DNA from: Peptoclostridium acidaminophilum DSM 3953
Lineage (GTDB): Bacteria > Bacillota > Clostridia > Peptostreptococcales > Peptostreptococcaceae
Length of the DNA stretch: 64,000 nt
NCBI RefSeq assembly: GCF_000597865.1
Contig: NZ_CP007452.1
Coordinates: 441,183 to 505,182, forward strand
Reading direction: 5' to 3'
The notes below the pieces were generated by a model, which saw only the letters and a list, made by a program, of their open reading frames with translations, did not search any database and was not told the DNA's origin. Positions 3,610 through 60,374 of this stretch are shown here, piece by piece (within the stretch, counting starts at the first letter, position 1; the number at the start of each line of letters is the position of its first letter). A program made the translations under genes and the position numbers.

Positions 3610-3616
3610 GTGCTCT

Positions 3617-6382
3617 ATGTCAAACAAACGAAGGAGAGATTTTTCAGAAAAGGCTAGTAGAAAAACAAATGATAATTCACTACTTGAGCGAGAAGAACTT
3701 GAAAGAAGTAAGCTGAAGCATTCTGATGATTACAGCAATAAGCGAGTGGAAGTATCTGAACGTTTTCAAGAGAAGGTAAAGGAACAAAGTAATCGATCTG
3801 CTAAAAGAGAAGCTACGGAAATTGAATCAAGTGGTCGTAGGAAAAGGCATAGAAGTAGTGATGAAGTAAAAGAATCTATAAACGATGAAGTATCTGTATA
3901 TAGCAATCAAGATTATAAAAGTGAATACTCGCCAGATACTGAAAAGAAAGCAGTTAAGAATAAATCAGGTGAGCGAAGAAATGAAACAAATCCTATTGAA
4001 TCTACTCAAAATCAAAAAGAGAAAAAGGCTAAACAAAGAAGCCAGCAAGCAAAGATTCAAAAAGAAAAAGAAGCTCAGTTAGAAACCCAAACAGCTGTCG
4101 TGCAAAAAAGCGAGTATGTGTTAGAAATATATGATCCGCTCTCAAAAGATATGGACAATGATGGGGTCATCGATCGCTACGATAATGATTTTAGGGATTC
4201 GACTATCAGCTATGAGGAAAAAGATAGAAAACTGGTTCAAGAGAAAAACTATAAGAGGAAAAACTATAAACAAGAGTTTCATAGGAGCAGTAAAGCTCAA
4301 GAACCTGTATTGGAGACAAAAAGGACTAAAAATGAGGAGTTGCTGAAAGATTTACCTGATGATAGAAAAATTAAAAACATTCAAAATAAGCAAAGAAAAG
4401 ACCTTTCTAAAGTTCAAGATTCAAAAGGAAATCTGAAAAAGAAAAATTCACTTGCCTTAGCATCCACTGGTGCCGTTTTAGAAACCACAAAAAGGTATTT
4501 AAGAAAAGAAAATGATGATAATGCCGGTGTGGATGCCAGTGAAAAATCCCTTGGAGCAAGTTCAAAGCTCGTTCATGGAATCAAAGACTACCGAATTAAA
4601 AGACAGAATAAAAAAGTTAAGGCAATCAGAAAATATGATGACAAGATTCTACTAAGAAAATCAAAGTTAGAATTTAGAGATGCCACAAAGCTTTCAAAAG
4701 CAGAAGAATCTTATCAGAAAATGAATGCTTATAGGAAATTTCAAAAAAGAAAGCGGATGAAGGCAAGCATCTACAAGCAGAACGATGTCGGAATCAAAGA
4801 TAGAATAAAGAAGGCTTTTATAGGTGCAATCAAAGGTACAAAAGAGCTGATTAAAAAGAAGGCGACAAAAATCGGAGTGATTCTTGTTAGCCTTTTTCTT
4901 TTCCTATCGGTTATTTTAAACGCTGTCTCGCTACTGGGAGGATTAGGCGGAATTTCTAGCATGATTCTTTCCAGTTCCTATTTGACAAGCGATAAGGAGA
5001 TTACAGTATCGGATGAACTTCTACAAGAACTGGAAGCTGATTTAATCATCAAAATACAAAATATCCCAACAAATTATCCAGACTATGACAGTTATCAGTA
5101 TCAAGTGGGTTCGATTGGGCATGACCCTCAAGTCTTAGTCGCTTATTTAACAGCAAAATATGGAGAGTATCGCTTTTCAGAGGTTGAGGGTGAAATCCAT
5201 GAGCTTTTTAAGAGTATGTATCAGCTGAAACTAGAAGAAAGAGTTGAAACTTATACGGTGACTGAAACCAGAACGAGCACAGATCCTGAAACTGGAGAAA
5301 CAACAACAGAGGAAGTTGAGGTGGAAAAGACTAGAAGAATTTTAATCACAACATTAACTTCAAAAAGATTAGAGGATGTACTTGATGGCAGATTAAATGA
5401 AGAACAACAAGAACATTATGAAGTTCTTAATGAGACCAAGGGAAACTTTATGAATCTTCATTCCCCGATTCAAGGAGAATGGAAAAATAAGATTACCAGT
5501 ATGTATGGATACCGAGCAGATCCATTTACAGGAGAAAAGAAGTTCCATACTGCCATCGATATTGCGGATGTTGAAGGGACACCTCTTCTAGCAGTATTTG
5601 ATGGGATCATCACCTATACAGAGCATTCAGATTCTGGATATGGGAATTATGTGGAGCTGACAGATAAAGAAGGCAATATGGCAAGATATGCTCACGCAAG
5701 CTCTATTAGTGCAAGGATTGGTCAAGAGGTTAAAAAAGGAGATGAGATTGCAAAGATGGGAACGACTGGCAACAGTACCGGCTCGCATTTGCACTTTGAG
5801 CTTTACCTAGCCGATGGAACAAGGGTCAATCCATACTTTTATCTTTATTCAGAAGAAGCCTTTAACAGTTACACCAGACCAAGTGTCTCTAGCTTTAATT
5901 CCTTTAACTGGCAAGGTGGAGATGTTCAAGAAACAGTTTGGGGATATCTGGTTACACATGGTTATACGCCAGAAGCAGCAGCCGGAATTATGGGCAACAT
6001 CGAAGCTGAATCTGGTTTTAATACCTCAGCAGTTGAAAGTTCTGTTACAAACCCTGGAGAAGGGATTGGCTTAATCCAGTGGAGTTTTGGCAGAAAAGCA
6101 CAGCTTATTGCATTTGCTCAGTCTCAAGGTAAATCTTGGTCAGATATTGGTGTTCAGATTGCTTTCTTAGATTATGAAATGAATGGAGCAGAAGGAACGG
6201 TATTTCCAGGTGGAGTGAATGGCTTTAAGAATCTTACAAGTATTGAAGAAGCAACAAGTCAATTCTGCTGGCTCTTTGAAAGACCGAATGTGAACTACGC
6301 TCACTACGAGAGAAGAATCAGTGCAGCTCATGCTTACTATGAGATGTATAAAGACTTTGACGCATCGGTGGTGACACCATAG
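3617..6382 (+). CDS. Conjugation cell-wall hydrolase (M23 peptidase plus lysozyme-like)
   Basis: A 921-residue VirB1-like protein that should open the peptidoglycan for the mating channel. The first 400 residues are highly charged and probably disordered, with an acidic repeat DMDNDGVIDRYDNDF near 178 to 192. A membrane segment lies near 420 to 445. Outside the membrane an M23 endopeptidase domain follows (HTAIDI near 644 to 649 and HLHFEL near 723 to 728 give the zinc ligands), then a phage-tail-lysozyme-like domain from about 773 (GYTPEAAAGIMGNIEAESGF). The charged N-terminus stays in the cytoplasm by this topology. It is in the same operon as VirB4. Confidence 0.9.
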   Translation: MSNKRRRDFSEKASRKTNDNSLLEREELERSKLKHSDDYSNKRVEVSERFQEKVKEQSNRSAKREATEIESSGRRKRHRSSDEVKESINDEVSVYSNQDYKSEYSPDTEKKAVKNKSGERRNETNPIESTQNQKEKKAKQRSQQAKIQKEKEAQLETQTAVVQKSEYVLEIYDPLSKDMDNDGVIDRYDNDFRDSTISYEEKDRKLVQEKNYKRKNYKQEFHRSSKAQEPVLETKRTKNEELLKDLPDDRKIKNIQNKQRKDLSKVQDSKGNLKKKNSLALASTGAVLETTKRYLRKENDDNAGVDASEKSLGASSKLVHGIKDYRIKRQNKKVKAIRKYDDKILLRKSKLEFRDATKLSKAEESYQKMNAYRKFQKRKRMKASIYKQNDVGIKDRIKKAFIGAIKGTKELIKKKATKIGVILVSLFLFLSVILNAVSLLGGLGGISSMILSSSYLTSDKEITVSDELLQELEADLIIKIQNIPTNYPDYDSYQYQVGSIGHDPQVLVAYLTAKYGEYRFSEVEGEIHELFKSMYQLKLEERVETYTVTETRTSTDPETGETTTEEVEVEKTRRILITTLTSKRLEDVLDGRLNEEQQEHYEVLNETKGNFMNLHSPIQGEWKNKITSMYGYRADPFTGEKKFHTAIDIADVEGTPLLAVFDGIITYTEHSDSGYGNYVELTDKEGNMARYAHASSISARIGQEVKKGDEIAKMGTTGNSTGSHLHFELYLADGTRVNPYFYLYSEEAFNSYTRPSVSSFNSFNWQGGDVQETVWGYLVTHGYTPEAAAGIMGNIEAESGFNTSAVESSVTNPGEGIGLIQWSFGRKAQLIAFAQSQGKSWSDIGVQIAFLDYEMNGAEGTVFPGGVNGFKNLTSIEEATSQFCWLFERPNVNYAHYERRISAAHAYYEMYKDFDASVVTP

Positions 6383-6393
6383 GAAGGAGAATT

Positions 6394-6630
6394 ATGCGAA
6401 AAGAATTAACACAAACAAGACAAAAAAAGAAAAAATTAATGGAAAAGAGAGCTCTGATTGATGAACAATTGGAGCTTTTATCTTTGAGAGAAGAAGAATT
6501 GGAAAATGAAGAAGTCGTTATCGTTTTCCGTGAAGCAAATATCACCTTAGAGGAACTGATGGAACAGTTTAAACAATTAAAACAAGAAAAGAAGGAGAAA
6601 ACAGTTTATGAAAAAAACATGGAAGTCTAA
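6394..6630 (+). CDS. DUF4315 family coiled-coil protein
   Basis: A 78-residue protein made almost entirely of charged heptad-like sequence (KKKKLMEKRALIDEQLELL) followed by ANITLEELMEQFKQLKQEKK. This is the pattern of DUF4315 proteins, which sit between the wall hydrolase and the DUF4366 protein in Tn1549-like elements. GGAAGGAG at 6382 to 6389 precedes the start. Its end overlaps the next gene by 23 bases. The function is unknown; a structural role in the transfer apparatus is inferred from position. Confidence 0.75.
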   Translation: MRKELTQTRQKKKKLMEKRALIDEQLELLSLREEELENEEVVIVFREANITLEELMEQFKQLKQEKKEKTVYEKNMEV

Positions 6631-8254
6631 AGCAGCAGCAATACTGGGTGCAGCACTCATTATGACAGGAATTGTAGGAGGTATTGTTGGATATCCAATC
6701 GTGGTAGCGGCAGCCAATGAAGTCACATCTGAAGAGGAACTTCAGCATAAAGAAGAACAAACGGATTTATCAGTGGAGGGTATTAAAGTTCTTGAAGATG
6801 AATCTAATGAAATTGATGAACGTCTCAAAAAAATTGAAGAAGTGCTTACTTCAGAACAGGAAACGAACCAAGAACAAAATCAGCAAATTGAAGAGCTGAA
6901 AAAACAAATGGAAGAACTGGCTGAAGAAAACAAGAAGGTTCAAGAGGAACTGAAAGTAGCCGAAGAAGCAACAGCCAAACTTCAAGAACAATTAAAAGAC
7001 CTTGAAGAGCGTGTGGAAGCTCTGGAGAAAGAAACTGAAACGTGCTGCAAAATTGAAATCACAATCAATAGTGAAAATGAGAGCTTGAAAAAAATCGAGG
7101 AACTTACAAAGAAACTAGATGAGATTTCAAAGAAAATAGCTGAAAGCAACAAGGCAGCCGAGTCTCAAAATTCTATCAATGAGGAACAAAGGAAAGAGAT
7201 TGAAAAATTACAGGCTGAAAAGGCGGATCTTCAAAAGCAGATAGATGAACTAAAGAAAACAGCTGAAAATAAAGAAACTTCTAAGGAGCTTGAATCCATT
7301 CAGAAGAAATATGATGAAATGAGCAAGCAGCTGGAGGGATTAAAAAAACTGATGGAAGAAAAGGATAGCCAAAAAAATACGGCTACTTCTACTTCTGAAA
7401 CGGTAAAAAAAGAGGAAACTAAGTCTACTACGACCTCTCCAGTTAAAGATTCAAGTGGGACAACTGGAACAACATCGGGAAATACAGTAGTTTCTAGCAC
7501 ACCAATTAGAGAATCATCGGCTACAACAACAAGTGATAATACAGCTGAAACAGAAGTTCAAATCAGGTATCCAAACAAGCTAACACCAAAAGAAACAGGA
7601 CAAACTTCAACTACAGGAGCCGCAACATCACAAACAGCAGATAGTTATTACGGTGCTTCAAATCAAAATAGCCAAGTGGCAGTGAAGACCGAAAAGTCTG
7701 GTACAGGTGGTGCAAATGCCAGTGTGACTGAGAATGTCGATAATGCGAATGGCGAATATCCAGTTCATCACGGAGATGAATCTAGTGAGCTTTATAGTGC
7801 GGATGCAAGACAATTTGTAACCTTCCAAACCAAATCGGGAAAGAATTTTTATCTCATCATCAACCATGATGAGGAATCGGAGAATGTCTTACTTCTTACC
7901 GAGGTTTCTGAAGCCGATTTAATGCACATGGTGGAAGAAGAGGTTCAAGAACCTGTAAAAGAAGTTGTTAAAGAAGAACCAGAGCAAGTTGAGATCGAAG
8001 AAGAGCCAGTTCAAGAAGTGGAAGAAAAGAGCAACTTTGGAACTTACTTAATTTTGATTTTGGTTATCGGTGGTGTCATAGCAGGTGGATACTACCTGAA
8101 AGTTGTAAAAGGCAAAGAAAAGGAGGAACTGAAAAAACTTGAAGAACCTGATGATTATGTATCTGAAGCAAGCGATGATGACACAGATGAAGAATATGAG
8201 TCAGAGGAAGTAGAAGAAACAAATGACGAAGATGATGAGGACATCATTCTCTAA
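6608..8254 (+). CDS. DUF4366 (CD1107-like) surface coiled-coil protein
   Basis: A 548-residue protein with an N-terminal signal sequence (MKKTWKSKAAAILGAALIM, cleavage likely after VVAAA), a long coiled coil to about residue 255, a Ser/Thr-rich linker to about 370, the conserved core FVTFQTKSGKNFYLIINHD near 399 to 417, an acidic stretch, a membrane segment near 478 to 497 and a very acidic cytoplasmic tail. This is the layout of DUF4366 mobile-element proteins. It is probably displayed outside the membrane as a fibrous part of the mating apparatus. AAGGAGAAAACAG precedes the start inside the DUF4315 gene. Confidence 0.82.
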   Translation: MKKTWKSKAAAILGAALIMTGIVGGIVGYPIVVAAANEVTSEEELQHKEEQTDLSVEGIKVLEDESNEIDERLKKIEEVLTSEQETNQEQNQQIEELKKQMEELAEENKKVQEELKVAEEATAKLQEQLKDLEERVEALEKETETCCKIEITINSENESLKKIEELTKKLDEISKKIAESNKAAESQNSINEEQRKEIEKLQAEKADLQKQIDELKKTAENKETSKELESIQKKYDEMSKQLEGLKKLMEEKDSQKNTATSTSETVKKEETKSTTTSPVKDSSGTTGTTSGNTVVSSTPIRESSATTTSDNTAETEVQIRYPNKLTPKETGQTSTTGAATSQTADSYYGASNQNSQVAVKTEKSGTGGANASVTENVDNANGEYPVHHGDESSELYSADARQFVTFQTKSGKNFYLIINHDEESENVLLLTEVSEADLMHMVEEEVQEPVKEVVKEEPEQVEIEEEPVQEVEEKSNFGTYLILILVIGGVIAGGYYLKVVKGKEKEELKKLEEPDDYVSEASDDDTDEEYESEEVEETNDEDDEDIIL

Positions 8255-8279
8255 CAGAGAAAAATTATGAGGACACAAG

Positions 8280-8310
8280 GGGCAGTCGGAAATGGCTGCT
8301 CTTTGTATTT
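8280..8310 (+). terminator. Hairpin between the DUF4366 gene and topB
   Basis: GGGCAGTC (8280 to 8287) pairs with GGCTGCTC (8294 to 8301), two of eight pairs being wobbles, with a six-base loop and a T-rich run after it. It may lower read-through into the topoisomerase gene, whose ribosome site follows at once. Confidence 0.45.
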
Positions 8311-8324
8311 TACAAGGAGGAACA

Positions 8325-10040
8325 ATGAAATTAATAATTGCAGAAAAACCAAGCGTAGCTTTATCTATTGCAAAAGTTGTTGGAGCGAGTAGTAGAAAAG
8401 ATGGCTATATCCAAGGAAATGGCTACATGGTGAGCTGGTGTGTCGGTCATCTGATTCAAATGGCAAGTCCAGATAAATATGATGAGAAGTATGCTAAATG
8501 GAATTTAGATGATCTGCCAATCTTACCGAAAGATTTCAAGTACGAGGTTTCTAAGAATACGAAAAAGCAATATGGAGTGCTTAAGAAACTACTTCATTTA
8601 AAAGAGGTCGATACAGTTATAAATGCTTGTGATGCAGGGCGTGAAGGTGAACTCATATTTCGCTTAGTTTATGAAGAAGCCAAATGTAAGAAACCTATCA
8701 AAAGGCTTTGGATTTCATCCATGGAAGATGAAGCAATCAGAAAAGGGATTGAGAGTCTTGCCAGTGGCAAAGACTTTGAGAATCTATTTGAAAGTGCAAA
8801 GTCTAGAGCCATCGCCGATTGGCTGGTAGGAATGAACCTGAGTAGGCTTTACTCCTGTCTTTATAATCAAAACTACTCGGTAGGAAGAGTACAAACACCA
8901 ACGCTTTCAATGATTGCTGAAAGAGATAGTGAGATTTCAAGCTTTATCAAAGAACCATATTATGTGGTTGAAATTGTGACCGATGAGTTTTCGCTATCGA
9001 CAGATCGTATTGATTCAAAAGAGATTGCTGAGCAACTCTCAAATCTAGTTCCAGAAGAACTTATCGTTACCGAAGTCATCAATAAAGAGAAGATAACAAA
9101 ACCTGAACCGTTATTTGATTTAACTGCTTTACAAAGAGCAGCGAACAGATATTTTGGGTTTAGTGCAAAACAAACTCTTGATTACCTTCAAAGTCTTTAT
9201 GAAAAGAAGCTTGTGACTTATCCGAGAACAGATAGTCGCTATTTAACTGATGATATGAAAGATACAGTCTCTGAAATGTTAAACACAATGGGGGGAGGCT
9301 TTGAAAGGGATGCTAAAAATATAGATTCTATCTTCAAAAATGAAAAAGTAAGTGACCATCACGCTATTTTGCCAACACTTGCAGCAATGAAGAACGGTCC
9401 TGGTACTCTTCCATCTTCGGAGCAGAAAATCTATGACCTAATACAAGCCAAACTCTTGATGTGTACGAGTTCAAATTTGATTGAAAGCACGACAAAAGTG
9501 ATAGTGGAGTTTGATGGAGTTACATTCTCAGCAAGCGGAAAAACTGTTCTTGAAGAAGGCTTTTTTGGGTTCGTGAAACCTTTTTTGAATAACAAAAAGA
9601 ATGAAACAATTTTGCCTAAACTAAGTGAAGGAGATGTTCTTTCCATCAAAGGAAGCATTGTTAGGCAAAAATTCACGCAACCACCAAAGCATTTCACAGA
9701 AGAAACACTTCTAAAGGCAATGGAGCTTGCAGGGGCAGAGGATATCGAAAAAGGAATTGAAGTTGAACGTAAAGGTCTTGGAACACCGGCAACAAGAGCA
9801 GGTGTTATTGAGAATTTAATTTATAAAGGCTTCATCGAAAGGGATAAGAAAAATCTTCTTGCAACACATAAGGGAATGAGCTTAATTACGATTGTATCTG
9901 AAGAATTTCGTTCTCCGAAAAAAACAGCTGAATGGGAGATGAAGCTCTCAAAGATTGCAGATGGGAAAGAGAGTTCAAAAGATTTTCTAAAGGATATTGA
10001 AAGAGATATTTCAAACCTGGTAAATCACTACCAGAAATAA
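8325..10040 (+). CDS. topB: DNA topoisomerase III (type IA)
   Basis: A 571-residue type IA topoisomerase that breaks and rejoins one DNA strand; in ICEs it probably resolves transfer or replication intermediates. The start is at 8325 because ACAAGGAGGAACA lies directly before it and the Toprim motif begins at once (MKLIIAEKPSVALSIAK). The metal-binding NACDAGREGELIF is near residue 100 and the catalytic tyrosine is in LVTYPRTDSRY near 298. No C-terminal cysteine cluster is present, so the zinc-ribbon tail of chromosomal TopB enzymes is missing. Confidence 0.93.
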   Translation: MKLIIAEKPSVALSIAKVVGASSRKDGYIQGNGYMVSWCVGHLIQMASPDKYDEKYAKWNLDDLPILPKDFKYEVSKNTKKQYGVLKKLLHLKEVDTVINACDAGREGELIFRLVYEEAKCKKPIKRLWISSMEDEAIRKGIESLASGKDFENLFESAKSRAIADWLVGMNLSRLYSCLYNQNYSVGRVQTPTLSMIAERDSEISSFIKEPYYVVEIVTDEFSLSTDRIDSKEIAEQLSNLVPEELIVTEVINKEKITKPEPLFDLTALQRAANRYFGFSAKQTLDYLQSLYEKKLVTYPRTDSRYLTDDMKDTVSEMLNTMGGGFERDAKNIDSIFKNEKVSDHHAILPTLAAMKNGPGTLPSSEQKIYDLIQAKLLMCTSSNLIESTTKVIVEFDGVTFSASGKTVLEEGFFGFVKPFLNNKKNETILPKLSEGDVLSIKGSIVRQKFTQPPKHFTEETLLKAMELAGAEDIEKGIEVERKGLGTPATRAGVIENLIYKGFIERDKKNLLATHKGMSLITIVSEEFRSPKKTAEWEMKLSKIADGKESSKDFLKDIERDISNLVNHYQK

Positions 10041-10059
10041 CTGAACAAAAGAGATTTTG

Positions 10060-10095
10060 GAGGGATGAGTAGAAAAAACTTGTCCCTCTTTTTTT
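10060..10095 (+). terminator. Rho-independent terminator after topB
   Basis: GAGGGA (10060 to 10065) and TCCCTC (10083 to 10088) form the stem, followed by seven T. The hairpin contains the ATG at 10065 that would otherwise look like the start of the next gene. Confidence 0.6.
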
Positions 10096-10106
10096 ATTTG
10101 AAGGAG

Positions 10107-11093
10107 GTGAAAGCAATCGAACAAATAACAGTATTAGAACTCTTTGGAGGGATTGGAGCAATTAGAAAAGCACTCATCAATCAGGAAATACCATATAAGG
10201 TCATTGACTATATCGAGAACGATAAAAATTGTGTGAAAAGCTATAACCAGCTCTATGGAGAAGATTATAAACCCCAGTCAGTAACGGATTATCATCCGCC
10301 AGATGAGAAGATAAATATTCTTATGCATGGTAGTCCGTGTCAAGATTTTAGTCGAATAGGCATGAAGCAAGGCGGAGAGGTTGGTAGTGGTACACGGAGC
10401 AGTCTTCTCTTTGAAACAATACGAATCCTCAAAGAAATGAAAGAAAAACCCACATGGGTCATATGGGAAAATGTAAAGGGAGTCCTAGACAGAAATATGC
10501 GGGATTCCTTTTTTTATTACCTGAAAGAGCTTGAAGATCTTGGTTATCAAAATAAATTTGAGATTTTAAATGCGATGGACTTTGGAGTGGCTCAAAAACG
10601 AGAACGAATCTTTGTCGTGAGTGGTTTAAAGGATAATACATTCCAATTTGAGAATCTTGAGAAACGGCAAGCTCCCAGTATCAAGGAAATACTAGAAACG
10701 GATGTTTCAGAGAAGTACCTCGTGCATCAGCCTTCCATGCTAAAACTCATGGATACAAATAATGACTACCGAAGAGACTTCAAGGCACGAGTTCAAATTA
10801 TTGATGACTTTGCTTACACGATTAGCACTAAGCAAATGAGAATTCCAAATGCTGGTCTAGTTGATTTAGGAAATGGCAAGTATCGCTATTTGACCGAGAA
10901 AGAGTGCTTTTTGCTTATGGGCTTTAGTGATGAGGATTTTAAAAGATTAAGAGATATCTATCCAGAAAAAGAAAAAACAACTTCAAGCATTTTATACAAA
11001 CAAGCAGGTAACAGTATCGTTGTTCCTGTTCTTGAAAGCATCTTAAAAGAAATCGTAAAAGGAGAAGAAAATGAAAGCATTAAACAAGATTAG
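10107..11093 (+). CDS. DNA cytosine-5 methyltransferase of the transfer region
   Basis: A C5 DNA methyltransferase of about 328 residues. Motif I is LELFGGIGAIRKAL, the catalytic cysteine is in GSPCQDFSRIG, motif VI is the WENVKG region, and motif X is QAGNSIVVPVLE. It may protect element DNA from host restriction before or after transfer. The start is uncertain: the ATG at 10065 lies inside a terminator hairpin, and AAGGAGG at 10101 to 10107 suggests a start near 10107 (GTG) or just after. No matching nuclease is next to it, so it looks like a solitary methylase. Confidence 0.82.
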   Translation: MKAIEQITVLELFGGIGAIRKALINQEIPYKVIDYIENDKNCVKSYNQLYGEDYKPQSVTDYHPPDEKINILMHGSPCQDFSRIGMKQGGEVGSGTRSSLLFETIRILKEMKEKPTWVIWENVKGVLDRNMRDSFFYYLKELEDLGYQNKFEILNAMDFGVAQKRERIFVVSGLKDNTFQFENLEKRQAPSIKEILETDVSEKYLVHQPSMLKLMDTNNDYRRDFKARVQIIDDFAYTISTKQMRIPNAGLVDLGNGKYRYLTEKECFLLMGFSDEDFKRLRDIYPEKEKTTSSILYKQAGNSIVVPVLESILKEIVKGEENESIKQD

Positions 11094-11493: not shown

Positions 11494-11513
11494 AACAACA
11501 GAAGGAGGAAAAC

Positions 11514-14500
11514 GTGAGGATTAATGATTTTCAGCATCAGATAGAACTCATCAAGCAAGAGGTATTGAACGATGATAGGAATTATGTTCAGCTTTTGCAA
11601 ACGATGGGTAATAACTGGCGATATGACTTTATCAACCAGTTAAGCATATACGACAAAAATCCAGGAGCAACAGCTTGTGCCAAGTTTGATTTCTGGAGAC
11701 AGAATTTGAACCGAACGGTAATGATGGGGCAAAAAGGGATTCCAATCATTGAAGATTATGGGTACTACCAGAAGGTAGACCATATTTTTGATGTAGAACA
11801 AACCATATCGAAGAATAAAGAGGTCAACGAAGTCCGTATATGGAAATTTAAAGAAGAAGATCAAGAGATCATTTCTAATATGATTTTAATGGAAGGTCAA
11901 GAAGTGACGGGAGATTTACGAGGAGACTTCAATACGCTCATCAGGTTAAAAAGTGAAAATATATTTAGCTCTTTGATGAATGACCTTAGAATTCAGGAAG
12001 AAGACCAAGGTGCATTTAGAGAGTTTCTAGAACAATCAGCACTTGTAAGTTTTTCGACAAGGTTAGGTATATCAGTTGAGGTTGATTCTATAGCCTTTCA
12101 AAAGGGATTAGAAAGACTAGATGGAATCTCGCTTATGCAAGTGGGCGACGAACTTACAAGACTTAATAAAGAAATTTTGGAAGAACTCATTACAAAAAGT
12201 AATGAGAAAATGAAAAATAGGCTGCTGACAAATGTAAGGGCTGCCGAATATAATAAAAGTAACGATAAAGAAGGAGGATTAGATAATGTATTTCGAAGAG
12301 ATACCAATGATAGACTTAACGAGGACGGACGAGTTCTCAGATCTGGCAACAACGCAGGAGATAGCCGAGAGAATCAAGGAGAAAACACTGAATCAGCTAG
12401 AAGAGAACAAGGACTTCATAGAGAGATATCCCAATCCGATATACGCAGCGATGAGGCTAGAGTTTCTAGCAGAGAGCGAGAATCAGGAACAGTGGGAACT
12501 TCTGACAGACCTATATTACGAGAAGAAATTAGTACCACATCTCATGGAAACACAGGAAAGAGCCATTCAAATGATGAGGGTCGAGAAACCGAGAATGATG
12601 GAAGCTTGGGAATTGACGGAGGAGATGAAGACCGAAAAGCCACAGGAATACGAGGGGCAAATGAACAATCTGATTTCGAGCTTGAAAGAGATCATCATCA
12701 AGGAAGTAGTCGAAGCTTAGAAAATCAAGAAGGAAACGAAGGTGAGGAAGTCAAACAATCGGCTTCTTTTTCTTTTTATTCAAAAGATAATTCCGATGAA
12801 CTGATGCCAAATGAGATTCTAGATAATGTTCCAAAACTTTACGGACAAGAGTCTACTCCACTTTTAGATCAAGTAGTTCATGCAGCCTATGTTATTCCAC
12901 TAAGAAGTAATTGGACATGGTATTTGACTGAATATGATGAAGCGTCTGGTGATGCCTTTGGTTTGGTTGCTTGCATTGAGCCTGAACTTGGGTATTTCAA
13001 TTTGAATGAACTAAAGAGCCTTGGTGCACAAAGATTGATTTTGGAAGACTTTCCAAAAAGTTATAGAGAGCTTTTAGATACAGAACTCTATAAACAACTA
13101 ACGAGTGATGAGCTAGTAAGCGTATTTGGTTCGGAGGTGTTATCCAATAATTTAGAAGCAGAAAATATTGAAGAAACCCAGTTGCCAAAACTATCCTATG
13201 AAGAAACCGATAAGGGCTTAGATGTCTTTTACTCATCTGGAAATACAGAAGATGAAAAGCTAATCGCTCAAATTGATGGTGAAAGTAGCTCATATAACTG
13301 GATAGATGAGTCCTTTGCTAGAAAAGACATTTATCAAGAGGTTTCAAAAGAGTGGTGGAATAATTTTCGGCCGAAATTCTGGCAAAAACAGGATGAGAAA
13401 CTTGCTGAGTATGACCTGGGATTTTACTCGATGGGCAATGGCTATGTGGTAGGCAATAAACTTGAAGAAGATCGAGGGACTGGAGACTATAAAAAGCTTG
13501 CCTTAATTGAAGCGAACAGAAATATTATCTTCTATGAAGAAAATCTGCCTGATGAAATTGTTGGTGAGATTAAATTTGTAGCTTATACAGACAATGATAG
13601 AAGATCTGAGACACAGAGTGATTCCAATATTTTTATAACTCGTGCTCCGATTGATATTAGCAATTTAAATGATGAGCAAAAAGAACAAATCAAAAAGGGA
13701 TTAGAAACTTTATCCTTAGATCAAGTTTTAAGTTATAGCAAAAGTGGGATTCCTTCCTGGCAGATGGAGCAAACTCGTTGGTCGCTTGAAAAAGGAATAT
13801 CTATTGAGCAATCAAATGCTTTAGCGGGTTCAAAGCTAGATGTTGGTGACTTTAATATCCTTCGCTCTTATGTAGAAGCGGGCATTTTCATTGAACAAAT
13901 TAATGAGCTAAACCAAGGCTTTCTGACTACGCTTGAACTCATAGCCAAAGGCAATGAAATGCTTGAGCTTAATAAAACAAATAAAGAAGTTATTGTTGAG
14001 CCAGATAAAACGAATGAGCAAATCGCCCTTGATTTAGAGAACGAGGTGTTGACACCAGATTTAAAGGTTGGACAACTCGTTTATTATGACCATGAAGCGT
14101 ATACAGTAAGGCGAGAAGCTGCTCTTAACCCAATTACAAAGAAGTATGATTTGTGGATTTCACCAGTCGATGAGAAGAACCTAACAGTTCCCATCGTAAG
14201 CTTTGAAAATGAAACAGAACTTTTCGAGAAGATTCAACTCGAAAGGCCAACTTTCTTGATTGGAGATGAAGTTCTCTATAAAGAAAAAGCTTGGACAATC
14301 ACTGGATTTGATTCAATGGGCGATATTAAAACGGTGACAATAAAAGACCATGAAGGATTTCTAGGCGGATTTATTACTGGTTCAGAAGTTGTTATTTATC
14401 GTAAAGAATCAGACCTTGATTCAATTCTAAAACCAATTCATGAAGATGAACTTGTGGCTGATGATGAAGCAGATATCATTACTCCAAAACTAGTTACAAG

Positions 14501-17500
14501 CAACTATCACATGTCTACTGATGTTTTCCAAGAAAATCTGACACCATCCGAAAGGCTTGAGAACAATAAAAAAGCCCTAGAGACCTTGTTCGCACTTGAA
14601 AAAGAAAATCGTAATGCGACACTTAAAGAGCAAGAGGTTCTAAGTCGCTATGTTGGCTGGGGTGGACTGGCAGATACCTTTGATGAAAACAAAACTGGTC
14701 AATGGCAAGCCGTGCGAGAGTTCTTAAAAGAAAACCTGACTTCCAAAGAATACGATAGTGCCAAAGAAAGTACTCTTACAAGCTTCTACACTCCCCCACA
14801 AGTAATTGAAGGGGTTTATTCAGCTCTATCACAAATGGGATTTAAAACAGGGAATGTCTTAGAGCCTAGTATGGGTGTTGGTGCTTTTGTAGGCTGTATT
14901 CCTGATTCGATGAAGGATTCAAAAGTATATGGTGTTGAGTTAGATAGTATTAGTGGCCGTATTGCTAGAAAGCTTTATCCAGAAAGTGATATTCAAATAA
15001 AAGGTTTTGAAGAGACAAATTTCTCAAACAATTTCTTTGATATTGCCATCGGTAATGTTCCCTTTGGAGACTTCAAAGTAAATGACAGAGAGTACGACAA
15101 AAATAATTTTCTAATTCATGACTACTTCTTTGCTAAGACCTTAGACAAGGTTCGAAATGGTGGTGTGATTGCCTTCATTACTTCTAGTGGAACACTTGAT
15201 AAAAAAGATGAGAGTGTTCGAAGGTATCTTGCCGCACGTGCAGAATTTCTAGGAGCAATAAGACTTCCTAATACCACTTTTAAAGGGCAAGCAGGTACAG
15301 AAGTAACCAGCGATATTATCTTCCTAAAGAAAAGAGATAGCATTCGGGATCGGGATGAGCCTTGGATTCACCTAGGAAGCGATGAGAAAGGGCTAAACTA
15401 CAATCAGTATTTTGTGGATAATCCTGAGATGATTCTAGGTGAAATGACTGAGGAAAGTGGGCCCTTTGGTAACAGGGTCGTTTGTATCCCAAATGAAGTG
15501 GATCTGAAACGTCAGTTACAGACTGCAGTAGAGAAAATTGCAAGAGAAAACCACTATGAAGAAATTGAACTTGATGTTGATGAAGAAGTAACGCTACCGG
15601 CAACGGATGATATTAAAAACTTCTCCTATACCATCATTGATGACAAGGTTTACTTTAGGGAAAACTCTATTCTCATTCAAAAAGAAGTGACAGAGAAGAA
15701 TAAAGAAAAAATTGGAGATTATCTAAAAGTCACAGAAGCTCTAAAAGATGTAATCGAGGCACAGACGCAAGGTTCAAGTGATGAAGTTGTTGAAGGCAAG
15801 CAAGTTGTTCTAAATGAAATCTATGATGCCTTTTCTAAAAAACATGGCTATCTGAACTCTTTGTCTAATACCAGAGCCCTAAAAGAAGATAGCAACTTCC
15901 CATTAGTATCCTCAATCGAGGTACTTGATGATGAGGAAAATTTCAAAGCAAAAGGCGATATCTTTAGCAAGAGAACGATTGTCAAAGCACAGAGTATTGA
16001 CCATGTTGATACATCATTGGAAGCCCTGGTTTTGTCTATCTCCCAAAGAGGACGAGTTGATTTTGACTATATGACTGAATTAACTGGCAAGGACAGAGAA
16101 ATACTCATTCAAGAACTGTATGGTGAGATCTATCTGGATATTCAGGAGTTCGATCAGTTTGGTAATAGTAAACCTTTCCAGAACGTGCTTGATGATTCTG
16201 AGTACCACTTTAACTATGTGACAGCAGATGAGTATCTGAGTGGAAATATCAGAGAAAAACTCGGTGTCATCAAAGAGTACGAATCCCATGTTTCAAAGCT
16301 TTTATCCAAGCGTTCCTACTTCCAAGGGGGAGAACGATTTGAGATTGATGAAAAAGAAGCACAAGTACTGGAAAAAGAATATATGGCACTTCAACATCAA
16401 CATCAAAAACTTGAAGAAGTGATGCCTGAGAGGCTCACTGCTTCAGATATCAATGTGCGTTTAGGAGCAACATGGATTCCAACAAAAGATGTAGAGCATT
16501 TCATGTTCGAGACATTAAAAACACCTGGATATAATCGCTGGGATATCAAAGTGAAGTTTTCACCAATGACTAGCGAGTGGAATGTTGAGGGTAAAAGTGT
16601 TGATCGAGGCAATGACCTTGCCGAATTAACCTTTGGTACAAGCCGAGTGAATGCCTACAAGCTCATTGAAGATGCACTGAATCTAAAGGAAACAAAAGTC
16701 TTTGACCAAGTTGTCAACCCTGATGGTTCAAAAAGTTCCGTACTCAATAAAAAAGAAACATTACTGGCTGGGCAGAAGCAAGAACTTCTAAAAGAGGAAT
16801 TTAAGAATTGGATATTTCAAGAACCAGATAGGCGAAATCGGTTAGAGAATATGTATAACGAGCGATTTAACTCAATTCGTAATCGGGAGTATGACGGAAG
16901 TAACCTAACCTTTGAAGGAATGAATTCAAAGATTGATCTAAGAGAACATCAACGTAATGCTATTGCAAGAAGTCTTTATGGTGGGAACACCTTGCTTGCC
17001 CATGTGGTGGGTGCTGGTAAGACATATGAGATGGTGGCTAGTGCGATGGAAAGCAAACGACTTGGGATGTGTAGCAAGTCTTTATTTGTAGTGCCAAATC
17101 ATCTAACTTCGCAAATTGGGCGTGAGTTTATGCAGCTCTATCCTGGAGCAAATATCATGGTGGCCGACAAAAAGGACTTTGAACCAAAGAAAAGAAAAAG
17201 ACTGATCGGCCGCATTGCAACAGGTGAGTATGATGCAGTTATTATCGGTCATTCACAATTCGAAAAGATTCCCATGAGTAAGGAATATCAGGAGAAGCAT
17301 ATCAATGACCAGATCGATGTAATCATCAATTATATCAATGATTACAAGTACGATAGGAATCAAAATTTTACCGTCAAGCAATTAGAAAAGACAAAGAAGA
17401 AACTTCAAACAAGGCTTGAAAAATTGACAGATGATTTTAAGAAAGATGATGTAATTACTTTTGAAGAACTAGGAGTTGATAAGCTCTTTATTGATGAGGC

Positions 17501-19922
17501 TCATAACTATAAGAACCTATTTCTCCATACTAAGATGAGAAATGTGGCAGGTATTGGTCAATCGGAAGCTTTTAAGTCTTCTGATATGTATATGAAGTGT
17601 AGATACATGGATGAGATGACTGGTGGAAAAGGAATCGTCTTTGCCACTGGTACACCAGTTTCAAATTCTATGACAGAACTTTATACCATGCAGAGATACC
17701 TTCAATTTGATGATTTAAAAAAGAATGGCTTAGAACACTTTGATTCATGGGCGGCGAACTTTGGTGAAACAGTCTCTGCTTTTGAGCTTTCACCAGAAGG
17801 TACAGGATACAGGGTGAAGACAAGATTTTCTAAGTTCTTCAATCTTCCAGAACTTATGAGTATGTTCAAAGAAGTGGCAGATATTAAAACAGCAGATATG
17901 CTAAATTTGCCAATACCAGAAGCAAGGTTTGAAGTTCTTAAAACTATGCCATCAGAAGAACAGAAAGAAATCCTTGCAAGTCTATCTGAACGTGCAGACA
18001 AGGTGAGAAATCGAAGCGTTGAGCCTGAAGAAGATAATATGCTCAAAATCACCAGTGATGGAAAAAAACTCGCTTTAGACCAACGACTAATTAACCCTCT
18101 GTTACCAGATAATCCTGATAGCAAGGTAAATGTATGTGTAAAGAATGTCTTTGCCATTTGGGATAAAACTTCTGAGGAACGTTCAACACAGCTCCTGTTC
18201 TCGGATATGTCCACTCCTAAAGGAGATGGAGAGTTTAATATTTATGATGATGTTCGAGAGAAATTGGTTGCACTGGGGATTCCTAAAGGTGAAATAGCCT
18301 TTATTCATGAAGCCAATAGCGACAAACAAAAGGATGAACTCTTTGCCAAAGTTAGAAGTGGCGAAGTTCGTATATTAATGGGTTCTACGCAAAAGATGGG
18401 TGCCGGCACAAATGTTCAAAATAAGCTGATTGCACTTCATGATTTGGACGTTCCTTGGAGACCCTCTGACCTAGAACAAAGGGCAGGAAGAATTGTACGT
18501 CAAGGGAATGAAAACAAGGAAGTCAATATTTTTAGGTATGTTACTGAAAATACCTTTGATAGTTATTTATGGCAGACAATTGAGAACAAACAAAAGTTTA
18601 TTTCGCAGATTATGACATCTAAGACTCCAGTTCGTGTAGCAGAGGACGTTGATGAATCAAGCCTAAGCTATGCAGAAATTAAGGCTCTAGCAACAGGGAA
18701 CCCACTTATTAAAGAAAAAATGGACCTGGACAATGAAGTGACGAAACTGAAAATGCTTGAAGCAAACTACAAATCGAATCAATATCGACTGGAGGATAAA
18801 ATACTAAAGTCCTATCCAAATGAGATTGCAAGGCTTGAGAACTTGATTGAAAACATTAAACAAGACTTAGTGGTAGTAGAACCAAGGGCGTTGGGTGGAG
18901 ATAAGTTCACATCGTTGACACTAGATAATCATCGATATACAGATAAAAAAGACGCTGGAGAAGCCTTATTAGAGTCTGTAAAGTCTGTTGGTATCAGAGA
19001 TAGTAAAGTCATCGGAAAGTATCGTAATTTTGATTTAGAAGCGTCTTATGATAGCTTCCATAACCTATACAAGTTTACCTTGCAAGGCAAAGCCAAACAT
19101 AAAGGAGAATTTGGTGTAAGTGCAGATGGTAATATCCAAAGGCTTGATAATGTCCTAGATAAGATGGGCGAAAGACTTCAGACTTTGCAAGATAAGTTAG
19201 AAGCAACGAAAGATCAGTTAATCACAGCTAAAGTGGAGGCAGAGAAACCTTTTGAAAAAGCAACTGAATTAAAAGAAAAAGTCCTGCGACTTGCAGAACT
19301 GAATCGTATCTTAGATATGGGCGAAGTAGAAGAAAAGGAAAACAAGAATCCACTGATAGAAGATATAAAACGTGTCATCGTCGACTTCTGTAATGAGGAA
19401 TATGACGAGGAAAATAAGTATGAGGAATTTGATGCCTTATACCCTGATTTAAGGCATGTGGGTATTGCTTACACGGAATCAGAAGATGGAAGGCATGAAA
19501 TCCAGTATGAGCTCGATTTAGAAAGTTATTCTTGGTCTCAGCTAGTAGATGGTGAGGTTATAAGTTCAGGTAGCTTTATGGAACAAGGAAATGAAGAAGT
19601 TGCCTTACTAGACCTAAAACGCCATGTAGAGAGCATGACTTTCTCTGATATGGTATTTGTCAATGAGAAAGACCTAGAAGCTAAAATGAGGCTTAGAATC
19701 GATGAGAGTGGCACTTGGTATGATCCACTAGATAAAGATATGGACGATGATGGGGTTATTGATCGTTATGATGCCGATTTTAGAGATAGCAAGGTTGGAG
19801 ATATTGGAGACCTAGAAAACTCACAAGAAAAAACATCAATCTTAAGTCAAATTAGAAGCTATCAATCTAGCGAGAAAAACGATGAGCAATCAGAAAAGAA
19901 GAATCAAGAAAAAGAGAGGTAG
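11514..19922 (+). CDS. Giant N6-methylase-like / SNF2 helicase of the ICE
   Basis: A 2,802-residue protein. In order: an N-terminal domain (about 1 to 230), a disordered linker rich in R, E, S, D and G (about 258 to 410), small beta domains (for example TPDLKVGQLVYYDHEAYTV near 845), an N6-methylase-like domain (LEPSMGVGAFVG near 1117 and NVPFGDF near 1181 in place of NPPF/Y), a SNF2/DEAH helicase (VVGAGKTYEMVA near 1827, LFIDEAHNYKN near 1991, GAGTNVQNK and QRAGRIVRQG near 2297 to 2325) and an acidic C-terminal repeat (DKDMDDDGVIDRYDADF near 2739). Such proteins are common in Firmicutes ICEs and are thought to act in DNA processing or anti-restriction. The altered NVPF motif leaves methylase activity uncertain. 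Another gene is nested in the linker-coding part. Confidence 0.9.
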   Translation: MRINDFQHQIELIKQEVLNDDRNYVQLLQTMGNNWRYDFINQLSIYDKNPGATACAKFDFWRQNLNRTVMMGQKGIPIIEDYGYYQKVDHIFDVEQTISKNKEVNEVRIWKFKEEDQEIISNMILMEGQEVTGDLRGDFNTLIRLKSENIFSSLMNDLRIQEEDQGAFREFLEQSALVSFSTRLGISVEVDSIAFQKGLERLDGISLMQVGDELTRLNKEILEELITKSNEKMKNRLLTNVRAAEYNKSNDKEGGLDNVFRRDTNDRLNEDGRVLRSGNNAGDSRENQGENTESARREQGLHREISQSDIRSDEARVSSRERESGTVGTSDRPILREEISTTSHGNTGKSHSNDEGRETENDGSLGIDGGDEDRKATGIRGANEQSDFELERDHHQGSSRSLENQEGNEGEEVKQSASFSFYSKDNSDELMPNEILDNVPKLYGQESTPLLDQVVHAAYVIPLRSNWTWYLTEYDEASGDAFGLVACIEPELGYFNLNELKSLGAQRLILEDFPKSYRELLDTELYKQLTSDELVSVFGSEVLSNNLEAENIEETQLPKLSYEETDKGLDVFYSSGNTEDEKLIAQIDGESSSYNWIDESFARKDIYQEVSKEWWNNFRPKFWQKQDEKLAEYDLGFYSMGNGYVVGNKLEEDRGTGDYKKLALIEANRNIIFYEENLPDEIVGEIKFVAYTDNDRRSETQSDSNIFITRAPIDISNLNDEQKEQIKKGLETLSLDQVLSYSKSGIPSWQMEQTRWSLEKGISIEQSNALAGSKLDVGDFNILRSYVEAGIFIEQINELNQGFLTTLELIAKGNEMLELNKTNKEVIVEPDKTNEQIALDLENEVLTPDLKVGQLVYYDHEAYTVRREAALNPITKKYDLWISPVDEKNLTVPIVSFENETELFEKIQLERPTFLIGDEVLYKEKAWTITGFDSMGDIKTVTIKDHEGFLGGFITGSEVVIYRKESDLDSILKPIHEDELVADDEADIITPKLVTSNYHMSTDVFQENLTPSERLENNKKALETLFALEKENRNATLKEQEVLSRYVGWGGLADTFDENKTGQWQAVREFLKENLTSKEYDSAKESTLTSFYTPPQVIEGVYSALSQMGFKTGNVLEPSMGVGAFVGCIPDSMKDSKVYGVELDSISGRIARKLYPESDIQIKGFEETNFSNNFFDIAIGNVPFGDFKVNDREYDKNNFLIHDYFFAKTLDKVRNGGVIAFITSSGTLDKKDESVRRYLAARAEFLGAIRLPNTTFKGQAGTEVTSDIIFLKKRDSIRDRDEPWIHLGSDEKGLNYNQYFVDNPEMILGEMTEESGPFGNRVVCIPNEVDLKRQLQTAVEKIARENHYEEIELDVDEEVTLPATDDIKNFSYTIIDDKVYFRENSILIQKEVTEKNKEKIGDYLKVTEALKDVIEAQTQGSSDEVVEGKQVVLNEIYDAFSKKHGYLNSLSNTRALKEDSNFPLVSSIEVLDDEENFKAKGDIFSKRTIVKAQSIDHVDTSLEALVLSISQRGRVDFDYMTELTGKDREILIQELYGEIYLDIQEFDQFGNSKPFQNVLDDSEYHFNYVTADEYLSGNIREKLGVIKEYESHVSKLLSKRSYFQGGERFEIDEKEAQVLEKEYMALQHQHQKLEEVMPERLTASDINVRLGATWIPTKDVEHFMFETLKTPGYNRWDIKVKFSPMTSEWNVEGKSVDRGNDLAELTFGTSRVNAYKLIEDALNLKETKVFDQVVNPDGSKSSVLNKKETLLAGQKQELLKEEFKNWIFQEPDRRNRLENMYNERFNSIRNREYDGSNLTFEGMNSKIDLREHQRNAIARSLYGGNTLLAHVVGAGKTYEMVASAMESKRLGMCSKSLFVVPNHLTSQIGREFMQLYPGANIMVADKKDFEPKKRKRLIGRIATGEYDAVIIGHSQFEKIPMSKEYQEKHINDQIDVIINYINDYKYDRNQNFTVKQLEKTKKKLQTRLEKLTDDFKKDDVITFEELGVDKLFIDEAHNYKNLFLHTKMRNVAGIGQSEAFKSSDMYMKCRYMDEMTGGKGIVFATGTPVSNSMTELYTMQRYLQFDDLKKNGLEHFDSWAANFGETVSAFELSPEGTGYRVKTRFSKFFNLPELMSMFKEVADIKTADMLNLPIPEARFEVLKTMPSEEQKEILASLSERADKVRNRSVEPEEDNMLKITSDGKKLALDQRLINPLLPDNPDSKVNVCVKNVFAIWDKTSEERSTQLLFSDMSTPKGDGEFNIYDDVREKLVALGIPKGEIAFIHEANSDKQKDELFAKVRSGEVRILMGSTQKMGAGTNVQNKLIALHDLDVPWRPSDLEQRAGRIVRQGNENKEVNIFRYVTENTFDSYLWQTIENKQKFISQIMTSKTPVRVAEDVDESSLSYAEIKALATGNPLIKEKMDLDNEVTKLKMLEANYKSNQYRLEDKILKSYPNEIARLENLIENIKQDLVVVEPRALGGDKFTSLTLDNHRYTDKKDAGEALLESVKSVGIRDSKVIGKYRNFDLEASYDSFHNLYKFTLQGKAKHKGEFGVSADGNIQRLDNVLDKMGERLQTLQDKLEATKDQLITAKVEAEKPFEKATELKEKVLRLAELNRILDMGEVEEKENKNPLIEDIKRVIVDFCNEEYDEENKYEEFDALYPDLRHVGIAYTESEDGRHEIQYELDLESYSWSQLVDGEVISSGSFMEQGNEEVALLDLKRHVESMTFSDMVFVNEKDLEAKMRLRIDESGTWYDPLDKDMDDDGVIDRYDADFRDSKVGDIGDLENSQEKTSILSQIRSYQSSEKNDEQSEKKNQEKER
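12286..12720 (+). CDS. Nested gene inside the helicase, TnpV-like protein
   Basis: A 144-codon open frame in the +1 frame of the helicase gene. A perfect AAGGAGG (12271 to 12277) lies 8 bases before its ATG. The product looks like a folded, mostly helical protein: it has Trp, Tyr and Phe (WELLTDLYYEKK, YPNPIYAAMRLEFLA) and ends MNNLISSLKEIIIKEVVEA. The helicase frame over the same bases is low-complexity and disordered, as expected if the nested frame is the constrained one. The C-terminal pattern (HL.ET...A, then EEMK, then MNN....EII..EVV) resembles TnpV-type small transposon proteins, from memory. The function is unknown. Confidence 0.72.
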   Translation: MYFEEIPMIDLTRTDEFSDLATTQEIAERIKEKTLNQLEENKDFIERYPNPIYAAMRLEFLAESENQEQWELLTDLYYEKKLVPHLMETQERAIQMMRVEKPRMMEAWELTEEMKTEKPQEYEGQMNNLISSLKEIIIKEVVEA

Positions 19923-20984: not shown

Positions 20985-22088
20985 GTGCTAATGAGAACCT
21001 TTAGATATATTGATTTGTTTTGTGGTTGTGGGGGATTTTCAAAAGGCTTTTCTGATGCAGGATTTAAGGGAGAACTAGCAATCGATTGTTGGGAAGATGC
21101 CGTTGAAACATATAGAGATAATTTTCCAAATCATAAAACAATAATTGCAGATTTATCTGAATTAGATATTGAAAAAGAAATGAAAAATTTTAATTTAAAT
21201 AAAGATACTATTGACGTTGTCATTGGTGGACCGCCATGTCAAGGATTTTCACTATCGGGGAAAAGAGATATTGATGACCCACGGAATAAATTGTATAAAT
21301 CTTTTGTTAATGCTGTTTTTCAAATTAAGCCAAAAGTTTTTGTGATGGAAAATGTTCCTGGATTAGTAAAATTATTTAAAGGTGTTGTTTGGGAGAGGAT
21401 AATCAAAGAGTTTGAAGAACTTGGTTATAATATTTCATGGAGAATTTTATCGGCAGAACAATTTGGTGTCCCTCAAACTAGAAAAAGAGTGTTTATCGTA
21501 GGTGTTAATCGGGATTTTTTTGGAAATGATAATTTTTTTGAATTTCCTAAAGGAGAACATGGTGAGAAAAAGGATGTTGTAACAACCAAGGATGCTATAA
21601 GTGATCTTGACTTTCTGCCAGATGATGTTATTGGGGATAATTGTATTTTATATAGAAAGCCTGCAGAAACAGCATTTCAAAGAAAAATGAGAAAAAATAG
21701 TGACAAGTTGTTTAACCATGTAATTACTTTGCATACTGAAAAAACAAAAGGCATCATATCATTAGTCCCAGATGGGGGAAATTATAAAAACCTACCAGAG
21801 GAATTGCGGAATACAAGGAAAGTTAACATAGCATGGACTCGAATGAATAGTAACTTACCTTCATTCACCATAGATACAGGTCATAATCATCATTTTCACT
21901 ATTCTGAAAATCGAGTTCCAACAGTTAGAGAGTCTGCTAGGATTCAATCATTTCCAGATACATTTCATTTTAAGGGTGGAAAGACGAGTCAACTTAAGCA
22001 AGTAGGAAATGCAGTACCACCTATGTTAGCTGAACAAATTGCCCTAGAGATAAAAAAGTTTATAGAAAGGAAAGAACAGGATGTATGA
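20985..22088 (+). CDS. DNA cytosine-5 methyltransferase (first of the defence operon)
   Basis: A 367-residue Dcm-type enzyme. Visible motifs are I (YIDLFCGCGGFSKGF), IV with the catalytic cysteine (GGPPCQGFSLSGKR), VI (FVMENVPGLV), VIII (QTRKRVFIVG) and X (QVGNAVPPMLAE). It would methylate cytosine at C5 to protect self DNA. The GTG at 20985 directly follows the regulator's stop and has GGAGG 8 bases upstream; the ATG at 20991 is possible. Its end overlaps the nuclease gene by 8 bases. It differs from the second methyltransferase of this operon, so each may recognise one strand or half of an asymmetric site. Confidence 0.92.
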   Translation: MLMRTFRYIDLFCGCGGFSKGFSDAGFKGELAIDCWEDAVETYRDNFPNHKTIIADLSELDIEKEMKNFNLNKDTIDVVIGGPPCQGFSLSGKRDIDDPRNKLYKSFVNAVFQIKPKVFVMENVPGLVKLFKGVVWERIIKEFEELGYNISWRILSAEQFGVPQTRKRVFIVGVNRDFFGNDNFFEFPKGEHGEKKDVVTTKDAISDLDFLPDDVIGDNCILYRKPAETAFQRKMRKNSDKLFNHVITLHTEKTKGIISLVPDGGNYKNLPEELRNTRKVNIAWTRMNSNLPSFTIDTGHNHHFHYSENRVPTVRESARIQSFPDTFHFKGGKTSQLKQVGNAVPPMLAEQIALEIKKFIERKEQDV

Positions 22089-55016: not shown

Positions 55017-55018
55017 CG

Positions 55019-57986: not shown

Positions 57987-57987
57987 T

Positions 57988-58126
57988 TTGTAACTTGTAA
58001 CCTCATAACCTAAAAAATTAGAGCTACGCAGGAAACGAGATTTTTTCTTATCGCGTGCGCGCGTGCGTATACACGTAAAAATATGTAGACCTATAGATTT
58101 AGGAGTTACAAGGTTACAAGTTACAG
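57988..58126. other. Candidate phage replication origin
   Basis: Two TTGTAAC units (57988 to 57994, 57995 to 58001) face three GTTACAA/G units (58105 to 58111, 58113 to 58119, 58120 to 58126). The 14-base arms GTAACTTGTAACCT (57990 to 58003) and AGGTTACAAGTTAC (58111 to 58124) are perfect inverted copies. Between them are an A/T stretch and an alternating CGCGTGCGCGCGTGCGTATA block. It lies right after the primase-helicase gene. Confidence 0.5.
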
Positions 58127-58140
58127 GAAGGAGAAAACGG

Positions 58141-59222: not shown

Positions 59223-59223
59223 A

Positions 59224-59265: not shown

Positions 59266-59284
59266 AGAAAAATAGCATGAAGAG

Positions 59285-60354: not shown

Positions 60355-60374
60355 CAAGGATTGGAGAGATGAAA

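Follow-up and report, generated by a model that had tools for sequence, protein, structure and literature searches.

A probable tnpV gene nested in the +1 frame of ArdC-headed methylase-helicase genes

TnpV is a protein of Tn4451-type and related mobilisable transposons, in which tnpV is an ordinary stand-alone gene; stand-alone copies follow a recombinase gene in Campylobacter coli, for instance, and neighbour an HTH gene in Vescimonas. The polyvalent proteins of conjugative elements frequently carry ArdC-N as an N-terminal 'header' and include a DNA methylase-SWI2/SNF2 dyad (PMC5512222; this and the other papers cited for background are represented by those parts of their text that were available). 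Only a few examples of long overlapping prokaryotic genes are established (PMC9927249). In E. coli, too, a small ORF can lie complete within another gene: nog1 occupies the -2 frame of citC and, according to its authors, is a recent orphan (PMC4683798).

The window analysed here (the whole stretch of 64,000 nucleotides from Peptoclostridium acidaminophilum DSM 3953) holds a tnpV whose predicted product belongs to the same Pfam family, PF14198, as the Tn4451-type proteins, but which lies wholly inside another gene. That host gene resembles the polyvalent proteins in architecture and in its conjugative-element setting (as far as these are described in the available part of PMC5512222), and its core is homologous to the DarB-like antirestriction methylase-helicases of phages. 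In contrast to nog1/citC, the two genes of the pair are on the same strand, the pair is found across the phylum, and the nested gene comes from a known family. The sequence-only reading that singled out this locus knew of no description of such a pair, and literature searches have likewise found none for tnpV nested in a helicase gene: the available portions of PMC3158075, PMC9815147, PMC5633684, PMC11913394, PMC5512222 and PMC12942858 do not mention it, and neither TnpV nor overlap occurs in the main text of PMC5512222. The features referred to below are as follows.

8292-10040, + strand: DNA topoisomerase (named topoisomerase 3 in relatives)
10065-11093, + strand: C5-cytosine DNA methylase
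11502-11508, + strand: Shine-Dalgarno sequence AAGGAGG preceding the GTG start of the host gene
11514-19922, + strand: host ORF, methylase/SNF2-helicase, 2,802 codons, GTG start (from the ORF list)
11514-12250, + strand: ArdC-like N-terminal domain of the host, residues 1-245 (from tblastn to annotated proteins)
12271-12277, + strand: Shine-Dalgarno sequence AAGGAGG of the nested gene, 8 bases before its ATG
12286-12720, + strand: nested gene tnpV, TnpV family protein, ATG start, 144 codons, in the +1 frame of the helicase gene
12286-12720, + strand: the helicase frame over tnpV, a hydrophilic linker (host residues 258-402), stop-free and near non-coding in its evolution
15000-15233, + strand: adenine-methylase-like match in the host (Eco57I, 24.3 bits, cut-off 25.3)
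16929-18506, + strand: SNF2-type helicase part of the host, ResIII followed by Helicase_C (Pfam)

The host protein thus runs from its ArdC-like N-terminus through the linker and the adenine-methylase-like region to the SNF2-type helicase. Helicase_C and ResIII exceed their Pfam cut-offs, Eco57I and SNF2-rel_dom (21.8 bits, cut-off 24.9) fall slightly short of theirs, and homologues of the core are annotated as N-6 DNA methylase or SNF2-related. The N-terminus is similar to proteins annotated as ArdC-like and ssDNA-binding (tblastn, E 2e-5 to 1e-4), although Pfam ArdC gives no match in this segment at E up to 1. Upstream of the host are genes for a TraG-type P-loop protein, an M23/phage-lysozyme-type protein, a CD1107-like protein, the topoisomerase and the cytosine methylase, and a MobA/VirD2-like relaxase is encoded downstream. 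A topoisomerase gene also precedes the host in Streptococcus agalactiae CP138365 and Anaerococcus prevotii pAPRE01, as does a C5-cytosine methylase gene in the S. agalactiae, Aerococcus and Anaerococcus records. Judged by this gene content, the host sits in a conjugative element, with surroundings that look like those of an integrative conjugative element. Shortly after the helicase gene, a cytosine methylase followed by a BpuJI-like restriction endonuclease (20985-23484) is likely to be a restriction-modification pair carried as cargo. Farther along the window are three large serine recombinase genes in tandem (33249-38024), near them an HsdM-type methylase (38974-40470), and, at 53091-61538, genes for a family A DNA polymerase, an NrS-1-polymerase-like protein and an S-adenosylmethionine synthetase, which perhaps belong to a phage or satellite.

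The start of the nested gene reads AAGGAGG (12271-12277), ATTAGATA, ATG (12286), with an in-frame TAG at 12280-12282, a single codon separating this TAG from the ATG. The only other + strand ORF of at least 60 amino acids within the host is one of 60 codons at 16240-16422. The nested protein of the window matches the PF14198 TnpV profile with 38.6 bits (cut-off 27; E 1.2e-9), its residues 48-142 aligning with profile positions 21-111, and the same profile exceeds its cut-off in eight of ten further nested proteins tried, including the Enterococcus faecalis copy (33.2) and the Listeria phage copy (29.0). The S. agalactiae protein (L010, 15.9 bits) and the Anaerococcus protein (L012, 24.9 bits, slightly below) miss the cut-off, but still align with the window protein at 54% and 46%. 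The sequence-only reading had reported a 144-codon +1-frame ORF with AAGGAGG 8 bases before its ATG, had placed it over helicase residues of about 258 to 402, described as a stretch rich in R/E/S/D/G, and had noted a likeness of its C-terminus to TnpV-type proteins. The ORF list and the sequence bear out the coordinates, residue numbers and composition (residues 258-402 are rich in R/E/S/D/G/N), and the likeness to TnpV now rests on a profile match over a curated cut-off.

How far the arrangement extends was followed in four sets of loci. In the first, the ArdC-like N-terminus served as query against 393 genomes of the order and matched in 67 of them; among the matches listed, a TnpV-like +1 ORF was present at the same place in 30 of 30 loci (29 distinct proteins), over host identities falling to 22%. 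The second set comprised 40 regions around other matches of the first (the remaining matches are thus partly covered): all 21 loci in which a single ORF combines an ArdC-like head with a visible core have the nested TnpV, as does L120, which ends before the core, and the other 18 regions hold ArdC-like ORFs with neither a visible core nor a nested TnpV. The third set is the least biased, in the sense that neither the nested ORF nor the host N-terminus was used: with the methylase region alone as query against 199 genomes of the phylum, 18 helicase places were found in 11 genomes, all within open frames of more than 2,000 codons, and 17 of them (including two copies in the window's own genome) carry a nested TnpV. 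The single exception, L154 (G537), lacks a long +1 ORF, and its ArdC-like head is divergent. In the fourth set, PF14198 itself was the query in 299 genomes, and 30 loci among the matches listed divided into 16 nested, 13 stand-alone and one without a profile match.

Loci L001-L173 together yield 119 distinct TnpV sequences, 99 of them nested (every one in the +1 frame) and 20 stand-alone; 21 IMG/VR loci added later contribute four nested (two identical) and 17 stand-alone. In a census of distinct ORFs that have the ArdC-like head and in which a methylase or helicase core is visible, 54 of 55 contain a nested TnpV. (A further 46 'long' ArdC ORFs with TnpV stem from loci that end before the core. 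The ArdC-like ORFs without TnpV, 13 long and 10 short, show no visible core; of these 23, L110 ends at a contig end, one is a piece of L153 and one is on L154. Eight core ORFs lack the head, four of them being downstream pieces of split hosts, L011, L012, L142 and L143.) TnpV is also absent from four intact giant genes without an ArdC-like head, on Vallitalea, L. crispatus, C. jejuni and B. vietnamiensis plasmids; this sets the pair apart from the DarB-like type, although no DarB-named gene is among the four. On the evidence of these searches, nesting is a family-wide arrangement, beyond a single case and more general than first noted.

Named records with the pair are those of Granulicatella seriolae (98% identical), S. 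agalactiae CP138365, Aerococcus tenax, A. prevotii pAPRE01, a Streptococcus suis plasmid record, Cohnella, Monoglobus, Selenomonas, Virgibacillus, Enterococcus wangshanyuanii, E. faecalis and a Listeria phage record. The TnpV query gave no match in phages, the Listeria phage TnpV being reached through its helicase, and single-protein scans of viral contigs returned no relatives. The genome of the window has a second ArdC-headed methylase-helicase gene outside the window (G000:C1:628479-632051; L057, L119), and this bears its own nested TnpV from a different branch of the family. Several hosts are interrupted or shortened. At L185:4142-5650 an ArdC-headed ORF breaks off at about 500 codons; its nested TnpV is intact, and a recombinase-like ORF is found downstream. 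At L121:5139-9251 (G122) the host is missing part of its N-terminus and stops after 1,370 codons, again with an intact nested TnpV. Two parts of the A. prevotii helicase match are separated by a gene for a group II intron reverse transcriptase (L012:15027-16697). Insertion of elements into snf2 genes has been reported (PMC12942858 and PMC9815147, in the parts available).

Selection on the two readings was compared in four alignments (of 13, 6, 5 and 13 sequences), each site being assigned to a class according to what a change there does in both frames. (The estimates come from a simplified script on the idea of OLGenie, as far as that is described in the available part of PMC7531306; OLGenie itself was not the program used.) In the nested frame dN/dS is 0.24, 0.12, 0.13 and 0.14, with 95% intervals within 0.05-0.34. 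In the helicase frame of the overlap it is 0.73, 0.60, 0.87 and 0.74, with wide intervals (0.47-1.10, 0.25-1.60, 0.53-1.55 and 0.51-1.14). Two controls calibrate these values: the helicase frame outside the overlap gives 0.09-0.19, and the non-coding +1 frame of the helicase gene outside the overlap gives 0.50-0.82, which is taken as the neutral level of the estimator. By this measure TnpV is constrained like an ordinary gene, and in the four alignments the linker is indistinguishable from a non-coding +1 frame, its amino acids being close to free in the larger sets. A comparison by clusters gives a nested value, given host change, of 0.06-0.38 in all eight clusters with ratios, and a helicase value of 0.62-1.51 in six of the eight. 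Two single pairs are lower in the helicase frame: the window against Granulicatella (8 differences; helicase 0.20, nested 0.07) and L031 against L029 (helicase 0.25, nested 0.06). With helicase-frame intervals as wide as these over tnpV, the linker may still be under weak constraint.

The proposal made from the window alone, that the nested gene is the constrained one of the two, therefore agrees with overlap-aware dN/dS and with the flanking controls, subject to those wide intervals and the two low single pairs. Either of two observations would have counted against it. Purifying selection was not stronger in the helicase reading than in the nested reading, and the TnpV-like matches with internal stops, five in number, all lie away from the pair (the four of these that fall in loci examined have neither an ArdC-like nor a helicase ORF).

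Freedom of the linker to change its amino acids does not extend to stop codons. The helicase frame has none across tnpV in 65 distinct loci, against about 9.6 per locus expected from the TnpV proteins and each host's own helicase codon usage, and 3.8 when each gene's own codons are shuffled. Correspondingly, third-position T in TnpV codons before AA, AG or GA, which would generate a helicase-frame stop, occurs at 0 of 1,627 positions, compared with 867 of 3,333 elsewhere. The loci entering these two counts had been chosen as open. A check free of that choice took TnpV matches that an ArdC-like ORF either encloses or precedes by no more than 1,500 bases (repeats counted) and found 129 open host frames and no closed one; the 18 helicase places of the third set, which were also found without selection for openness, are likewise all open. 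These comparative counts establish that selection keeps the helicase frame open over tnpV.

They bear on the possibility that three separate products are made (ArdC-like protein, TnpV and helicase) and that the open helicase frame is incidental or serves a downstream restart. Some records look as that would require. RefSeq names TnpV in the Selenomonas record (L145:4799-11325) and starts the helicase after tnpV, so that the protein as annotated lacks its ArdC-like head. Hosts broken beyond the overlap with tnpV intact include Aerococcus, where the ArdC-bearing frame stops about 30 codons past tnpV and the core goes on in another frame; Cohnella and Monoglobus are broken far downstream. In a metagenomic scaffold (L153), a separate ArdC-like ORF (2918-3589) overlaps the start of the helicase ORF (3484-10737) in a different frame. 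This last arrangement, in which it is the helicase ORF that has the nested TnpV, may reflect either an error in sequencing or a genuine split. Among host-frame starts close to where tnpV ends there is also a slight excess of 5-base Shine-Dalgarno matches (8 of 133, all of them GTG or TTG, compared with 58 of 1,760 elsewhere). A match of at least 6 bases was found at none of these 133 starts, which speaks against a separate helicase product, and the absence of host stops from the 65 loci, the avoidance of T, the 129 open frames and the 18 blindly found places open across more than 2,000 codons all count the same way. Production of three separate proteins is accordingly regarded as very improbable.

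Initiation at the nested start bears on a further alternative, namely that a programmed frameshift out of the helicase frame generates an ArdC-TnpV fusion with no internal initiation. An unvarying +1 relation between the frames is what such a mechanism would need. Nevertheless, a nested-frame stop lies close upstream of the chosen start, at a median distance of 7 codons (one codon intervenes in the window) and within 15 codons in 53 of 65 loci, which makes a frameshift fusion unlikely. The nested start is, moreover, enriched in Shine-Dalgarno sequence: matches of at least 6 bases precede 43 of 65 chosen nested starts, against 18 of 2,079 control +1 ATGs in the same genes (the former count uses the best of several starts per nested ORF and is inflated by that). 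Frameshifting is thus left with even less support than separate products. That the nested frame is merely a chance opening in a low-complexity linker, which, given the linker protein, would be only mildly unlikely at any one locus (median probability 0.028), is ruled out for practical purposes by the PF14198 homology, by purifying selection measured against control frames, and by a census in which place and frame are conserved over protein identities of about 20% and lower.

The reading preferred here is that 12286-12720 is, very probably, a genuine protein-coding tnpV nested wholly in the +1 frame of the methylase-helicase gene of an integrative conjugative element. Ribosomes entering at the helicase GTG would read frame 0 through the overlap and produce a flexible hydrophilic linker joining the ArdC-like head to the methylase-helicase body; other ribosomes would start on the same mRNA at the AAGGAGG and ATG of tnpV and produce a compact, mostly helical TnpV. 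What comparison of sequences establishes is the family of the nested protein, its conserved place and frame, an excess of Shine-Dalgarno matches at its start, the action of purifying selection on TnpV, a linker that is only weakly constrained and selection that keeps the helicase frame open. Translation of both frames is only inferred, because there is no ribosome profiling, proteomics or mutant to support it.

Existing annotation rarely does justice to the pair. None of 11 named plasmid or phage records that contain it annotates both readings over the same bases: TnpV is named in three (Cohnella, Monoglobus and Selenomonas), the helicase alone in five (Anaerococcus, S. suis, Virgibacillus, E. 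wangshanyuanii and E. faecalis), neither gene is listed for S. agalactiae and Aerococcus, and the Listeria phage record is unannotated. (This count is soft, because plasmid tables omit pseudogenes.)

The order of events by which the two readings came to share their DNA is a matter of inference. The ArdC-like head and TnpV occur together, and the methylase-helicase core exists without either. The account that is somewhat favoured is that an ardC-like gene, tnpV and a methylase-helicase gene once stood in a row and were fused by read-across, tnpV keeping its own start. 'Overprinting', the term first applied to the locus, usually means a new gene over an old one; here it may have run in the opposite direction, with the linker overlying TnpV. 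The opposite order, in which TnpV was born de novo in a pre-existing linker and the Tn4451-type transposon TnpVs are escapees from the helicase gene, is considered unlikely without being dismissed. Its support comes from the TnpV tree (121 rows, 134 columns, with three fragments, as well as L152, L177 and L178, omitted), on which stand-alone and nested proteins intermix: seven changes of state are needed, at least five of them forced by well supported branches. A thinned tree of 87 rows, from which long-branch rows, near-copies and a few others are also omitted, needs six changes, three of them forced, and weakly rejects a single stand-alone clade (p-AU 0.036). Both the lack of a root and the poor resolution of the trees limit what can be drawn from this. 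In addition, the TnpV model is compact and confident, but the linker is skewed in composition and evolves much like non-coding sequence, which makes the linker look like the younger reading.

AlphaFold predicts the window TnpV as helical and confident from about residue 20 (mean pLDDT 85.8, pTM 0.76), and nested TnpV L181 similarly, with an N-terminal hairpin in addition (pLDDT 88.9, pTM 0.69). Foldseek found no match to the model in PDB and BFVD at E 0.001 or better, the best VIA-align score (Z 5.3, to a PABP domain) is within the range of common helical arrangements, and sequence searches of PDB gave nothing significant. Among solved and viral structures there is, then, no convincing match to the predicted fold, and none that suggests a function for TnpV. 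The acidity of the window protein (pI 4.48) raised the possibility of antirestriction by DNA mimicry; this was dropped as a general role, nested TnpVs ranging from pI 4.44 to 10.10 (58 of 99 below 6). A PADLOC match of one relative was weak (E 0.035) and was set aside. TnpV of Tn4451 is 'postulated to be involved in excision' through its likeness to lambda Xis (PMC3158075, in the part available). That the nested TnpV might assist excision or transfer of the element as a small accessory protein, produced along with the helicase, is offered as a tentative inference that falls short of being probable; the Tn4451 role is itself merely postulated.

A more far-reaching conjecture, held to be no better than doubtful, is that in Bacillota the linker of the ArdC-headed conjugative methylase-helicases is ground shared by two genes, nearly always occupied by tnpV and almost unconstrained in its own reading, and that the TnpVs of drug-resistance transposons have escaped from it repeatedly. 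If that were true, a large and often unannotated family would have a nested gene as its ancestral home, and nesting would possibly ensure that TnpV is always made and moved along with the polyvalent protein. Independently of that conjecture, recurrence of the pair in 54 of 55 ArdC-headed core ORFs means that selection on a dual reading can be measured here with many sequences. Poor annotation makes a probable second product of transfer genes easy to miss, and knock-outs placed in the tnpV stretch of such snf2 genes would hit both readings. Many Gram-positive mobile elements appear to carry, within a giant gene for DNA transfer, a hidden small gene that is the more strictly conserved of the two.
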